From a virus, in the IMG/VR virus record IMGVR_UViG_3300009103_000189, positions 1 to 20,611 of that record: 20,611 bases of DNA, one strand, 5' to 3'. Each line of letters begins with the position of its first letter. The stretch's first letter is position 1. This document shows positions 3,373-18,328 of the stretch, piece after piece. Under the pieces are notes generated by a model. That model searched no databases. It was not told the DNA's origin and saw nothing but the letters and a program-made list of their open reading frames with translations. The translations under genes were made by a program, and so were the position numbers.

Positions 3373-4390
3373 CATCCGTCTCCTTTTGTGCAGAACCATA
3401 TAAAAATTCTTTTTGACATGCTTCGTCAATCCTATCTAGTAAATCTTTTGTAAAAATATTATCTGCATTTTTTATAATATGACTCGAAAAATGTTTGTTC
3501 CCATCCGGCAATTCAATCTTATTTGACACCTTCTTAAAAATCTCATGATCAACAGCAAGGTCAATCAAACCATAATGCCGATCAAGGCCTGTATCATACC
3601 GAAGGATCACATCAACCATCTTATTTTCCACAGTCAAACGAGACTTATAATTACGACAATGAATAACATTACCAACAACGTCTGTCCCAACCTTTTCTTT
3701 TCTCTTGGACAGAAAAACAATATTGTCGGCAGAATACTTTAAACCACTACCACCAGCAAGTTCCTTTGTCGGATACATACTGCCAATGCTGTCATAAGTA
3801 TGATTAGTAACAATCATCGGAATGCCCAACTTTCCCAACTGAATAGTCAACACACGAAATGCACCCTTAATCATGGGTGCCCGTGTCATATCACGCTTGT
3901 CCGATCCAGCAGTCACATCCGAAACTTCTTTTGTTGTAGACAACTGCCCAAGGCTATCTAGACAAAATAACAATGGATGACGATCACTCTCAGGAGTCTC
4001 TTCTACTCTCTTGAGAATAATCATTGCCTGTGTACGAAACTCTTCTACCGTAGACACCGGAAGCATCGTCACGCGCCTGCTGTCAATTCCCCTTTCGTCA
4101 AGCATTGTACTAGTAATTGCAGATTCACTCTCAAAGAAAATGACACCGCCCGTTGGATTGTCTTTAAGAAATTGACGAACAATGCCCAAAAGAAAATACG
4201 TCTTTCCTGTTGCAGACTCACCAGCCAATGCAGTAATCTTATTACCCGGAAGTCCCTTGTAAATAGAACCCGAAATCAACGCATTCAAAATATAAGAACC
4301 CGTATCGGTATAAGAAGTCACATCTGCATACTGATCAACAAACGGATTCACCTTACTCAAGTCACCAAGAAAATCAAATGTTCCACTCAT
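3356..4390 (-). CDS. uvsX: UvsX RecA-like recombinase
   Basis: 344-residue strand-exchange ATPase of the T4 UvsX type, which forms the presynaptic filament for recombination-dependent replication and repair. Walker A GESATGKT is at residues 57-64, and the Walker B-like segment LLFCLDSLGQL is near 145. TNHTYDSIGSMYPTKELAGGSG follows the family's DNA-binding loop 2 region in two parts (TNHTYDSIG, then ELAGGSG). C-terminal residues 290-344 are acidic and helical, as in UvsX. The ATG at 4390 lies three bases after the glutaredoxin stop. Length is close to T4 UvsX (about 390 aa), slightly shorter. Next gene overlaps its end by 17 nt. Confidence 0.95.
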   Translation of the reverse strand: MSGTFDFLGDLSKVNPFVDQYADVTSYTDTGSYILNALISGSIYKGLPGNKITALAGESATGKTYFLLGIVRQFLKDNPTGGVIFFESESAITSTMLDERGIDSRRVTMLPVSTVEEFRTQAMIILKRVEETPESDRHPLLFCLDSLGQLSTTKEVSDVTAGSDKRDMTRAPMIKGAFRVLTIQLGKLGIPMIVTNHTYDSIGSMYPTKELAGGSGLKYSADNIVFLSKRKEKVGTDVVGNVIHCRNYKSRLTVENKMVDVILRYDTGLDRHYGLIDLAVDHEIFKKVSNKIELPDGNKHFSSHIIKNADNIFTKDLLDRIDEACQKEFLYGSAQKETDDVGTE

Positions 4391-8434: not shown

Positions 8435-8442
8435 TATTTATC
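8435..8442 (-). promoter_or_regulatory. T4-type late promoter variant GATAAATA
   Basis: Seven of eight bases match TATAAATA. The hsp20 stop codon TAA (8438-8440) is inside the motif. It would drive the amidase gene, which is expected to be late, through the hairpin at 8392-8420. Confidence 0.55.
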
Positions 8443-8917
8443 CGTTCAACGTCTGCGGACCTTCCGCAGAGACACCATTAATATCAATTACACGAACCTT
8501 ATCTTCTTCAGGCGTGACGTTCTTCAATGAAATTACGAGAAGACCATTCGTAAACTCGGCTCCAATAACCTCAACCGTAGGACTAAGTGTCCACACACGT
8601 TTGAAATTACGGGCTGCAATTCCTTGATGAACATACACAGCAGAATCGGCACCATGATCCTTCTCGGATTCAACGGTGAGAACATCTTCCTTCACCGTAA
8701 CCTTAATGTCGTTTTCTGTAAATCCAGCAAGGGCAATCTCAATAGCAAAGCTATCGGAATTATCATTCCTTACAATATTGTAGGGAGGATATGACGCAGC
8801 CTGTCCTGTTCCAACACTGGTCGAAAGTAGTCGATCAAAAATCTGATCAAATCCCAAAAGGAATGGATCACTACGAAGTTCATTAAAAATACTCGGTACT
8901 CTTCTAGTTGTAACCAT
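8438..8917 (-). CDS. hsp20: Small heat-shock protein Hsp20 (IbpA-type)
   Basis: 159-residue alpha-crystallin chaperone. The N-terminal arm contains RRVPSIFNELRSDPFLLGFD, typical of IbpA-like proteins; the alpha-crystallin core spans about residues 45-145, with AIEIALAGFTENDIKV and the FKRVWTLSP strand. The consensus IxI motif is present near the C-terminus as VRVIDING. It is an ATP-independent holdase. Hsp20 genes are recurrent in marine T4-like phages, where they may protect virion or replication proteins. ATG at 8917 with AAGGAG SD seven bases upstream. That SD is paired in a ROSE-like hairpin (8925-8942), so translation may be heat-regulated. It lies in a 128-nt leader, the longest intergenic gap of the block. 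Confidence 0.95.
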   Translation of the reverse strand: MVTTRRVPSIFNELRSDPFLLGFDQIFDRLLSTSVGTGQAASYPPYNIVRNDNSDSFAIEIALAGFTENDIKVTVKEDVLTVESEKDHGADSAVYVHQGIAARNFKRVWTLSPTVEVIGAEFTNGLLVISLKNVTPEEDKVRVIDINGVSAEGPQTLNG

Positions 8918-8924
8918 CTTATTT

Positions 8925-8942
8925 CTCCTTATTTAAAGCGAG
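8925..8942 (-). promoter_or_regulatory. ROSE-like RNA thermometer hairpin over the hsp20 SD
   Basis: The leader RNA can fold CUCGCUU / loop UAAAU / AAGGAG, six pairs with a single bulged G, covering the whole Shine-Dalgarno sequence. The anti-SD strand contains UCGCU, the UYGCU signature of ROSE thermometers that control bacterial small heat-shock genes. Two further hairpins lie upstream: CCGA-UUG-UCGG (near 8970-8981) and GAGAU-AAAAC-AUCUC (ends overlap this one and would compete with it). AUCU / AGAU can extend the stem to the start codon. Function is inferred from sequence logic only. Confidence 0.55.
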
Positions 8943-9000
8943 ATGTTTTATCTCTTTTTTATTAAACAAACCCGACAATCGGCATTCGTCTAATACCTAA

Positions 9001-9027
9001 AAGATAACCCCCATTACAGTTTGTCAA
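9001..9027 (-). promoter_or_regulatory. Possible host-sigma promoter for hsp20
   Basis: The minus strand has TTGACA (9022-9027), a perfect -35, with TATCTT (9001-9006) 15 bases downstream, shorter than the ideal 17. The same stretch also reads CTTG-N16-GTTATCT, close to the heat-shock sigma-32 pattern of alphaproteobacteria. It overlaps a hairpin (9007-9034), so one of the two readings may be accidental. Confidence 0.3.
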
Positions 9028-16640: not shown

Positions 16641-16726
16641 TGGTGCCGGGTGCGGGGATCGAACCCGCATGACCAAAGGTCGGGAGATTTTAAGTCTCCT
16701 GCGTATACCAATTCCGCCAACCCGGC
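16641..16726 (-). tRNA. tRNA-Leu (anticodon UAA)
   Basis: 86 nt with a long variable arm (CCCGACCTTTGGTCAT) typical of leucine tRNA. Acceptor GCCGGGT / ACCCGGC closes, T-arm GCGGGTTCGATCCCCGC, anticodon stem GGAGA-CTTAAAA-TCTCC. The CCA end is encoded. It decodes UUA, rare in GC-rich hosts but frequent in this AT-rich phage. Confidence 0.95.
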
Positions 16727-16739
16727 ATAAAATCATTAT

Positions 16740-16952
16740 TCATTTATTCTTTCGGATTTCCTTCCGTTGTTTCGCCAACACAAATCTACGTTGTTGACGA
16801 TTTAGATATACGAGATCCTCAGGCAAAAGATCCTTCCAAGCATCGTCTTGCAAATATAAACGCTTATGCTCGGCACGAGAATCAGCCCGTTTCATTGCGA
16901 GGGCTCCGTGATAATTAGCATTCTTTTTAGCTGCCTTTATTTTCATTTTCAT
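16740..16952 (-). CDS. Small basic hypothetical protein
   Basis: 70-residue lysine/arginine-rich protein (MKMKIKAAKKNANYHG, then NRQQRRFVLAKQRKEIRKNK cited in part). The open frame starts at 16979, but the ATG at 16952, overlapping the previous stop as TAATG with a GGAAAG SD, is preferred. Highly basic composition suggests nucleic-acid binding or an unstructured protein. It lies directly before the tRNA-Leu gene. No family recognised. Confidence 0.7.
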   Translation of the reverse strand: MKMKIKAAKKNANYHGALAMKRADSRAEHKRLYLQDDAWKDLLPEDLVYLNRQQRRFVLAKQRKEIRKNK

Positions 16953-17140
16953 TATATTTCTTTCCTGTTCTTTTCCCAATCAATATTCAGTGCCTCACAG
17001 GACACCAGAGCTTCGTGATACCAATCAAACTCGGCAACGTCACGCTTGATCTTATACAACCCAATGTTCAAGGCTGTCTCATCATATTCAAACACTTCAT
17101 ACTTTTCAGTTTCGCTATTATGCTTAAATCCAAATTTCAT
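16952..17140 (-). CDS. Small hypothetical protein
   Basis: 62-residue soluble protein starting MKFGFKHNSETEKYEVFEY. The ATG at 17140 has GGAAAA in SD position; the longer frame (to 17173) is rejected because it overlaps the 45-aa gene upstream. It contains one cysteine and two tryptophans (FDWYHEALVSC, DWEK). No motif recognised. Stop overlaps the next start (TAATG), so the two are co-translated. Confidence 0.7.
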   Translation of the reverse strand: MKFGFKHNSETEKYEVFEYDETALNIGLYKIKRDVAEFDWYHEALVSCEALNIDWEKNRKEI

Positions 17141-17153
17141 ATTTTTTCCTATC

Positions 17154-17291
17154 CTAACCCCGAAGAGTATCAATCAATTGCTTCAACTGCCGAATGCATT
17201 CACGAATATCCACATGTTCTTCCGTATCCTTTGATACGGGTGTTTCTGTTTCATATTCGTAAACACCACACAACTTACACATTACAGACAT
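17154..17291 (-). CDS. 45-aa CxxC small protein
   Basis: 45-codon frame MSVMCKLCGVYEYETETP..., ending RQLKQLIDTLRG. A single CKLC knuckle is the N-terminal half of a zinc-binding pair; the second pair is absent, leaving only C32 (RECI). ATG at 17291 with GAAGGA SD eight bases upstream. It lies just downstream of the tRNA block and before the 62-aa gene. May dimerise around zinc; function unknown. Confidence 0.6.
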   Translation of the reverse strand: MSVMCKLCGVYEYETETPVSKDTEEHVDIRECIRQLKQLIDTLRG

Positions 17292-17318
17292 AACCACATT
17301 CCTTCTTTAATTTTTAAA

Positions 17319-17395
17319 TGGCGGGGCGAGCGGGACTTGAACCCGCAACTTCCGGCTTGACAAGCCGATGCTCTAACCAATTGAACTACCGCCCC
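17319..17395 (-). tRNA. tRNA-Asp (anticodon GUC)
   Basis: 77 nt, acceptor GGGGCGG / TCGCCCC, discriminator G, CCA encoded. Anticodon arm TCGGC-TTGTCAA-GCCGG, T-arm GCGGG-TTCAAGT-CCCGC. Follows tRNA-Trp by the spacer TTTTTTA. Confidence 0.95.
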
Positions 17396-17402
17396 TAAAA
17401 AA

Positions 17403-17478
17403 TGGCAGGCTCGGGAGGACTTGAACCCCCAACCACCGGATTTGGAGTCCGATGCACTACCAATTGTGCTACGAGCCT
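17403..17478 (-). tRNA. tRNA-Trp (anticodon CCA)
   Basis: 76 nt, acceptor AGGCTCG / CGAGCCT, discriminator G, CCA encoded. Anticodon loop CTCCAAA gives CCA. T-arm GGGGG-TTCAAGT-CCTCC has one non-Watson-Crick pair. Separated from the ncRNA upstream by TTTTTT. Confidence 0.93.
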
Positions 17479-17484
17479 AAAAAA

Positions 17485-17598
17485 TGGTCGGGACAACCGA
17501 TTTGCAAAAAGTACCCACCCGGTATAACTCCGGCGCTATTAGGTTCCGAGTTTTATCCTAATAGACTTGGATTATCCGTAAAAGGATAACCGTGGGTT
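17485..17598 (-). ncRNA. Unrecognised 114-nt cloverleaf-like RNA ending in CCA
   Basis: It occupies one slot of the tRNA array with the same T6 spacers before and after, and ends GACCA. Folding by eye (numbering from its 5' end): P1 ACCCAC (2-7) / GTGGGT (81-86); P2 GGTTATCC (8-15) / GGATAATCC (22-30) with one bulge; P3 CTATTAGG (35-42) / CCTAATAG (56-63), perfect 8 bp with a 13-nt loop; P4 CCGG (66-69) / CCGG (77-80) with a 7-nt loop. This is a cloverleaf with four-way junction spacing like tRNA (P4 abuts P1), but no anticodon-size loop and no T-loop consensus. A 28-nt 3' tail follows, with TCGG / CCGA. I do not recognise the family. It could be a tRNA-like stable RNA akin in position to T4 RNA C/D. 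Confidence 0.6.
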
Positions 17599-17604
17599 AA
17601 AAAA

Positions 17605-17680
<76 letters not shown>

Positions 17681-17683
17681 ATA

Positions 17684-17759
17684 TGGTGGACCCTCTGGGA
17701 ATCGAACCCAGAACCTTGGGATTAAAAGTCCCCTGCTCTACCAATTGAGCTAAAGGTCC
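17684..17759 (-). tRNA. tRNA-Lys (anticodon UUU)
   Basis: 76 nt, acceptor GGACCTT / GGGTCC (with wobble), discriminator A, CCA encoded. Anticodon loop CTTTTAA gives UUU; T-arm CTGGG-TTCGATT-CCCAG. Reads AAA/AAG, abundant in this AT-rich phage. Confidence 0.94.
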
Positions 17760-17766
17760 GTATCTA

Positions 17767-18081
17767 TTATTCTTCCTTCTCAATTTGTCCGTACAACAAA
17801 TTAAGTTCTAACATACGTTGAACCGCAGGCATTTTACGAAAATTAATCATGTCTTCGGATTCAGGACGATAACCATAAACTTCTTTATGGACATCGGAAT
17901 ATCTCTCAACATCATCGCGAAGCTCAAGTTCATCAGCAATCTGAATTAATGCTTCGCCAGCATATGTATGACGTGATGCCTCAATGATCGCTGCATCGCG
18001 AAATGACCATTTAAATTTTTCATCAAACATCAATTTAAGTGCCGCACAATAAATGTCGTGCATAACATCTTCGTCAAACAT
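17767..18081 (-). CDS. Hypothetical protein in tRNA cluster
   Basis: 104-residue, acidic, mostly helical protein (MFDEDVMHDIYCAALKLMFDEKF, shown in part; then SFRDAAIIEASRHTYAGEAL, ending LLYGQIEKEE). ATG at 18081 with a strong GGAGG SD. It lies between tRNA-Lys and the structured RNA at 18114-18215, so that RNA is in its 5' leader and could regulate it. No motif recognised; no membrane segment. Confidence 0.8.
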   Translation of the reverse strand: MFDEDVMHDIYCAALKLMFDEKFKWSFRDAAIIEASRHTYAGEALIQIADELELRDDVERYSDVHKEVYGYRPESEDMINFRKMPAVQRMLELNLLYGQIEKEE

Positions 18082-18113
18082 TCAATACCTCCAATGAATG
18101 AAATTAAAATTGA

Positions 18114-18215
18114 GGTCTGCCTCCCTCGTCACAGGGAGGCTTCCTCTGTTGGCGATTTCGCTGCTGTTTCACCCTGACTGGTAGATGTGACGATCTCGCA
18201 GGTTTGGTGCAGACC
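18114..18215 (-). ncRNA. Structured RNA with complementary hexaloops (candidate riboswitch or sRNA)
   Basis: A closing stem GGUCUGC (18209-18215) / GCAGACC (18114-18120), 7 bp, encloses two hairpins. Hairpin A is AGAU-CGUCAC-AUCU (18183-18196). Hairpin B is GCCUCCCU-GUGACG-AGGGAGGC (18119-18140), perfect 8 bp. The loops CGUCAC and GUGACG are exact complements, extending to 8 nt with the flanking bases (UCGUCACA / UGUGACGA), so a kissing-loop is likely. CCUG / CAGG and CAC / GUG can add a stem around hairpin A, and GCG-AAAU-CGC a small third hairpin. A competing hairpin UUGGU-CUGC-ACCAA (18204-18217) breaks the closing stem, as in a switch. Lies between tRNA-Arg and the 104-aa gene. Not a family I recognise. 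Confidence 0.65.
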
Positions 18216-18251
18216 AACTACGGTTCGCGCAGGAATTGTCATTAAGTCGAA

Positions 18252-18328
<77 letters not shown>

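Follow-up and report, generated by a model that had tools for sequence, protein, structure and literature searches.

A ROSE-like two-hairpin element in the hsp20 leaders of T4-like and related phages, with thermosensing inferred

The hsp20 leader of the window

Does a phage control the synthesis of its own small heat shock protein by temperature? The question is raised by a leader in IMG/VR record IMGVR_UViG_3300009103_000189, the analysed stretch of which (20,611 nt) is called the window here. It represents part of the genome of a T4-like marine phage. According to Pfam matches, its minus strand carries the genes of gp44, gp62, a DUF6899 protein, RegA, an SNase-domain protein, Hsp20, an amidase-domain protein and a family B DNA polymerase of the gp43 type. 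The DNA of its regA gene is similar to cyanophages, and six tRNA genes (Leu, Asp, Trp, Asn, Lys, Arg) lie at 16641-18328 on the same strand. The gene that would be regulated, hsp20 (8438..8917, minus strand), encodes a small heat shock protein of 159 aa (PF00011, HSP20, E 1.2e-15) and starts with the AUG at 8917-8915. A short Hsp20 piece had no match in the plasmid collection. All window features described below are on the minus strand.

The first-pass annotation had proposed a ROSE-like RNA thermometer in front of this gene, in which the complete Shine-Dalgarno (SD) sequence is paired with CUCGCUU around a bulged G. This pairing is exact in the sequence. Hairpin II (8925..8942) consists of the anti-SD strand CUCGCUU (8942-8936), the loop UAAAU (8935-8931) and the SD strand AAGGAG (8930-8925), and stands 7 nt 5' of the AUG (8917). 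It has six pairs (C8942-G8925, U8941-A8926, C8940-G8927, C8938-G8928, U8937-A8929 and U8936-A8930), and U8943-A8924 might lengthen it by one more. The UCGCU taken for the UYGCU signature of ROSE elements is found within the anti-SD strand at 8941-8937, where the bulged G8939 faces AGGA. The core CTCGCT...AGGAG is also that of E. coli ibpA: between CTCGCTTTAAATAAGGAG in the window and CTCGCTGATTTCAGGAG in ibpA, the six-base strand and AGGAG are identical. At 37 C the minimum-energy fold of the leader includes hairpin II and the centroid is without it; the folding energy is -18.8 kcal/mol versus -11.3 kcal/mol in shuffles (z -3.1), and only one of 200 shuffles folds as well.

Hairpin I (8960..8995), on the 5' side, has the form UAUUAGACGAAU-(bulged G8983)-CCGA / UUG / UCGG-GUUUGUUUAAUA. 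It is very stable in the 37 C minimum-energy fold and is supported by compensatory changes in relatives. The window and its relatives have in common the core YGCC...GGG, which most of the relatives' hairpins I contain. Within the window, a YGC/GG motif with a bulged G occurs in both hairpins, at 8984-8982/8972-8971 and at 8940-8938/8928-8927. The window meets three criteria of the ROSE class: a small heat shock gene with the element in its 5' UTR, a U(U/C)GCU strand that pairs imperfectly with the SD and leaves a G bulged, and two to four hairpins with the SD in the 3'-most one. The fourth, translation that increases on warming as the SD hairpin melts, is inferred for the window by analogy. 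The first-pass annotation had also called upstream hairpins typical, and the two-hairpin layout is like that of the short Pseudomonas elements (PMC3669281) and like that of Rfam ROSE_3.

A third structure is specific to the window. The mini-hairpin GAGAU/AAAAC/AUCUC (8940..8954; arms 8954-8950 and 8944-8940) competes with hairpin II for the anti-SD strand, and it had been suggested to give an alternative fold with an open SD. The pairing itself is present. However, in the ViennaRNA prediction the SD is not freed, as CUUU pairs with GGAG, and the mini-hairpin is absent from all 41 leaders of the nearest relatives (0/41). The open-SD fold was therefore rejected.

Where does the leader begin? Measured to the previous ORF it is 128 nt long (9045-8918), as had been stated. 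A candidate promoter, with no mapped start, lies 5' of hairpin I at 9001..9027: TTGACA (9027-9022), a 15-nt spacer and TATCTT (9006-9001). At the equivalent place, relatives L002 and L014 have TTGACA-N17-TATCTT/TACCTT. Because hairpin I normally begins just behind the promoter, the functional leader is probably about 80 nt rather than 128. Among 67 phage leaders, 38 carry TAAATA, the core of a T4-like late promoter, within 40 nt 5' of hairpin I, against a mean of 4.5 and a maximum of 11 in 500 shuffles; it is mostly 3-6 nt away from the hairpin. With TAAATA so close, a transcript would begin at the base of hairpin I and its leader would be little more than the element. This suggests, in the absence of a mapped start, that where TAAATA precedes the element the hsp20 mRNA starts with it. 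In Prochlorococcus phage P-HM1 the annotated GTG start of hsp20 is at the 5' end of the element (L052:532-585). The likely start is the AUG 51 nt downstream, behind the SD, so that the annotation probably gives the protein 17 residues too many.

Conservation and covariation among related leaders

Is this arrangement kept in other phages? A protein search of IMG/VR gave 44 relatives of 83 to 35% identity. Leaders could be taken for 41 of them, the other three matches starting at most 32 bases from a contig end. YGCUU is found shortly before the SD in 41/41, so that absence of the UYGCU strand in close relatives, set in advance as a refuting condition, was not observed. The anti-SD strand is CTTGCTT or CTCGCTT in the 16 nearest, TTCGCTTGAAAGGGG in a freshwater group and CTCGCTTAAAAGGAG in L043 and L044, and the loop of hairpin II varies in both sequence and length (AATT, TTTTT, TTAT, GA).

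A wider set was made by adding 12 annotated phages (cyanophages, Pelagibacter phages including the 55-kb HTVC115P, and the Pseudomonas jumbo phage Deifobo), 240 more IMG/VR loci and 80 loci of bacterial genomes. From 377 loci, 370 had a start and 362 a leader of at least 60 nt (283 phage, 79 bacterial). Of the 283 phage leaders, 260 have UYGCU within 45 nt of their 3' end. Twenty of the remaining 23 have ACGCUU or GACGCUU, and L055, L359 and L056 (S-B68) deviate otherwise. Most of the leaders with ACGCUU or GACGCUU carry GGAGGU(U/C), with which the bulged-G stem forms again, its register shifted and its U-A pair now A-U. L138 (NZIV01000027.1, labelled as a Neomarinimicrobiota MAG) has at a contig end an Hsp20 that is 61% identical to that of Pelagibacter phage Mosig; it is probably a phage contig binned with a bacterium.

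For counting, the phage leaders were dereplicated to 79 that are less than 75% identical, and a hairpin was required to have YGC opposite the GG of the SD, a bulged G and at least 5 bp. Genes of the same loci with a good SD (99 after dereplication) served as controls. Such a hairpin is present in 77/79 phage hsp20 leaders, one of them spurious (L350), versus 3/99 control genes; with at least 6 bp the numbers are 72/79 versus 2/99. The two failing leaders are those of Deifobo, which has a TTGCG variant, and of L359. In bacterial hsp20 leaders the hairpin is found in 42/57 versus 2/27 controls. The gene hsp20 is second in its operon in L350 and L359, where the element (L350:691-750, L359:681-741) precedes a small upstream ORF of 79 and 71 aa, respectively, without a Pfam match.

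Do the paired bases change together? A covariance model of the two-hairpin structure, R1, was built from 18 phage leaders, and pairs were counted on 86 R1 matches, ten of which lie outside hsp20 leaders. Over the whole structure 90.3% of the cells are paired versus 72.7% in shuffles, 185 cells are altered on both sides versus 58.8, and the covariation is 0.443 versus 0.175, a value reached by none of 500 shuffles (0/500), with slid controls at 0.104 or lower. Since the alignment was made to fit the model and the leaders share ancestry, a kinship that the statistics ignore, these figures should be taken as support and not as probabilities. Most of the signal comes from hairpin I, in which 7/8 modelled pairs have compensatory changes and which RNAalifold recovered from the seed alignment unprompted. 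Hairpin II was not recovered by RNAalifold from that alignment. As the SD side hardly varies, its covariation is confined to the outer pairs, which occur in compensated U-A/A-U and C-G/G-C/U-A versions. When 5' and 3' arms were swapped between leaders (n=76), pairing was reduced in 1000/1000 permutations (mean 7.05 vs 5.85 bp).

At E<=0.01, R1 finds the hsp20 leader in 72/79 sources, including 54/61 that were not in the seed. On 12 complete phage genomes it matches the hsp20 leader in 11, with one match elsewhere; the leader it misses is that of C48C1, in which the element is visible by eye. A second match in HTVC008M (111728) precedes an S-layer domain protein and is without a YGC strand; it was treated as false. 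Among large IMG/VR records, 12/13 have matches. Of the ten matches outside hsp20 leaders in the 79-source search, four looked like chance (L002:2375, L100:331, L085:881, L359:1145), two are on the upstream cistron (L350:691, L359:681) and one is on dnaK (L111:1956); the others are L099:3057, L350:1633 and L057:1334. Six of the 80 bacterial loci are matched at E<=1e-4. Two are gammaproteobacteria (44 bits), two are Bacteroidetes, one belongs to the Legionellales and one is a MAG contig of probably viral origin. Scores on the hsp20 leaders of gammaproteobacteria and Bacteroidetes range from 44 to 24.5 bits, and the E. coli ibpB leader is matched with 16.5 bits (E 0.007).

The window's own copy of the element is an outlier. 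It scores 16.4 bits under R1 (E 0.003 for the window alone, 0.035 in the 79-source search) and 11.5 bits (E 4.9) under Rfam ROSE_3 (RF02523), short of the gathering threshold of 43. Both scores are low because extra sequence, the mini-hairpin, separates hairpins I and II. ROSE_3 aligns both hairpins in the phage leaders L360 (39.9 bits, E 7.3e-5), L050 (26.8 bits) and L057, and also in bacterial loci, always below the cut-off of 43; no phage leader tested reached that score, L360 being the best. The Rfam search of the window and L020 gave nothing above threshold. The best weak Rfam match of the window, freshwater-2 (RF02980; 22.3 bits, cut-off 49.9), was discarded, its alignment being without the anti-SD pairing. 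A second weak R1 match in the window (3466-3511, 13.5 bits) is only a hairpin-I-like UUGCC...GGGAACAA ahead of an AUG.

Other chaperone genes, temperature and rival explanations

There is a further question, whether the element is restricted to hsp20. Twelve viral dnaK loci were available, and R1 matches the dnaK leader in six of them, the other six being without a match. The highest score belongs to L388 (585-639, 41.8 bits), a 100-kb contig that also has a T4-type gp23 capsid gene (E 7e-100). L385 follows with 30.2 bits, the hsp20 leader on the same contig being matched as well (L385 matches 956-1003 and 2927-2981), then L389 with 19.8 bits, and L379, L380 and L384 with 15 bits (near 950-1003); L379 is the same contig as L111. 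In L404 (IMGVR_UViG_3300051212_000842), a 14.6-kb contig with the gene order dnaK, groES, groEL, hsp20, R1 elements stand before dnaK, groES and hsp20 (271-332, 2265-2317 and 4189-4260, minus strand), and TATAAATA is directly 5' of the hsp20 element. This contig has genes for a phage exonuclease, an endolysin and a ribonucleotide reductase. Neither a capsid nor a terminase gene was found on the fragment, so its viral nature rests on IMG/VR and on the phage-type genes. We lean slightly towards a general picture in which many T4-like and related phages carry a heat-shock set controlled by RNA thermometers, with ROSE-type elements, often transcribed from late promoters starting at hairpin I, gating hsp20 almost universally and dnaK and groES in some phages. 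If so, such phages would adjust their chaperone supply to temperature or protein misfolding after transcription, without depending on the heat-shock sigma factor of the host.

How might such a leader work? The SD of bacterial ROSE elements is blocked by the U(U/C)GCU strand, and on warming the SD hairpin melts whereas hairpin I persists; a Pseudomonas element from which a G of this strand had been removed was locked closed (PMC3669281 for both). By analogy with these elements, at low temperature the (C)UYGCUU strand of hairpin II would lie on the whole SD with one bulged G and block the ribosome, and on warming the weak bulged-G stem would open and Hsp20 would be made, with the stable 5' hairpin I possibly serving as a folding or stability module. 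The phage would then have heat-gated chaperone synthesis without a protein sensor. Energy folding does not settle the point. ViennaRNA gives for the window a probability of unpaired GGAG of 0.02 at 5 C and 0.27 at 42 C, without a sharp opening of the SD, and in the set of 79 leaders the SD is more hidden than in control genes, its response to temperature being flat. The leader of E. coli ibpA is a verified thermometer and has an equally flat profile, and the calculation is therefore uninformative, rather than negative, on thermosensing. That translation of the phage Hsp20 is temperature-gated is inferred from the six-base strand and the AGGAG that the window and ibpA share. On this analysis we regard it as quite probable that the hsp20 leader is a ROSE-like element of two hairpins that controls translation, thermosensing being an inference.

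The main rival, or complement, to thermosensing is self-repression by Hsp20. The leader might be a sensor of aggregation instead of, or alongside, a thermometer: phage Hsp20, like E. coli IbpA, would bind its own structured leader and repress translation, and misfolded proteins of phage or host would titrate Hsp20 and free the mRNA. In gammaproteobacteria, IbpA acts through the 5' UTR to repress its own mRNA, for which Arg93 is needed (PMC10474464). The window protein has an equivalent of Arg93 (GIAxRxF; R, R, V at 93/97/98), and so, by pattern, have 74/79 representative phage Hsp20s; among the five pattern-negative ones, L047 and L375 have R by eye, L050 and L055 have K, and L346 is non-R by the pattern alone. 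This conservation may reflect relatedness only, because Arg93 is common in alpha- and gammaproteobacterial IbpAs generally (PMC10474464). There is also no binding evidence for any phage Hsp20, and self-repression alone does not explain why the same element stands on dnaK and groES. We consider such a sensor, in place of the thermometer or beside it, possible but less likely than not; as a second input through the leader it would be compatible with a thermometer.

Could the leader be inherited but idle, captured together with a host hsp20 and retained merely because ribosomes bind it well, with no temperature control that would be of use to a lytic phage? Infections by phages are brief and the temperature of the sea changes little, and homologous leaders do occur on bacterial hsp20 genes. 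However, compensatory changes keep the pairing across cyanophages, pelagiphages and podovirus-sized phages, among leaders that share less than 75% identity, and the element is also found on dnaK, on groES and, when hsp20 is second (L350, L359), on the upstream cistron, all of which makes an idle leader improbable.

Still weaker is the idea of a DNA element, in which TTGCTT/CTCGCTT would be a middle-promoter box of the T4 MotA type, or the loop sequence TTTAAATA a T4 late promoter overlapping the SD. TTGCTT resembles the MotA box, and the window loop TTTAAATA differs by a single letter from TATAAATA. The criterion of a middle promoter, a MotA box with a -10 box at the usual spacing, is not met in the window sequence: at that spacing, the -10 box would overlap the AUG and the start site would be inside the gene. 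In some clades, moreover, ACGCTT stands in place of UYGCTT and the SD strand carries the U that fits it. The loop is free to differ in sequence from one relative to another, and late-promoter cores stand 5' of hairpin I instead (38/67 leaders, shuffle mean 4.5), so that this reading has very little left in its favour. Chance complementarity to a purine-rich SD, conceivable in so far as pyrimidine-rich stretches easily arise near an SD, is refuted for practical purposes by the comparison of 77/79 hsp20 leaders with 3/99 controls and by the 41/41 nearest relatives with a leader. The ROSE-like control element thus remains our preferred reading. The leader can fold into the hairpin that blocks the ribosome in bacterial RNA thermometers, and the element precedes nearly all of the related phage chaperone genes that were examined, so that phages probably have chaperones of their own gated by temperature or stress.

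Significance and comparison with known systems

No ROSE-type element in a phage was found described in searches of the open-access PMC literature; the present one is apparently the first, the ROSE kind itself being known. The gene hsp20 is among 25 genes common to all 16 marine cyanophages compared in PMC3037559, and the element is therefore probably widespread in nature. If the hsp20 leader is a thermometer, temperature-gated translation would be general in some of the ocean's most abundant viruses, and there would be a direct and testable link from water temperature or protein stress to phage reproduction. The leaders also form a large natural collection of two-hairpin ROSE variants in which heat sensing by the bulged-G stem can be studied, and the dnaK and groES cases would take ROSE elements beyond small heat shock genes.

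How does the element compare with thermometers already known? Only three from phages are listed so far in a 2024 paper (PMC11182007): the lambda case, for which Altuvia 1989 is cited, SPbeta blyA and a Caudoviricetes sigma70 gene. They are phage-encoded like the hsp20 element, but none is on a chaperone gene and each is a single case; their translation is temperature-dependent, while that of the hsp20 element is only inferred to be so. The lambda gene is cIII, and none of the three is known to be of the ROSE type. The cyanobacterial hsp17 thermometer also belongs to a small heat shock gene, in organisms that are hosts of cyanophages. The hsp17 thermometer has a single hairpin with a 1x3 bulge, whereas the cyanophages have the ROSE type (host genes were outside the comparison).

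Among ROSE elements, E. coli ibpA has the identical anti-SD/SD core CUCGCU...AGGAG, with more hairpins 5' of the SD hairpin than in the phage element. Both hairpins align with Rfam ROSE_3, including UGCC...GGGU and ACUCGCU...AGGAG, but no tested phage leader attains the gathering score of 43, and the window stays at 11.5. The Pseudomonas ibpA thermometers are short two-hairpin ROSE-like elements (Krajewski 2013, PMC3669281). The phage element differs from them in being phage-encoded, in the YGCC...GGG core of hairpin I with its bulged G, in the third mini-hairpin of the window and in a temperature response that is only inferred. What it has in common with them is a leader about 60 nt long before a small heat shock gene, a stable hairpin I, a hairpin II that pairs the SD with U(U/C)GCU, and a start codon left unpaired.
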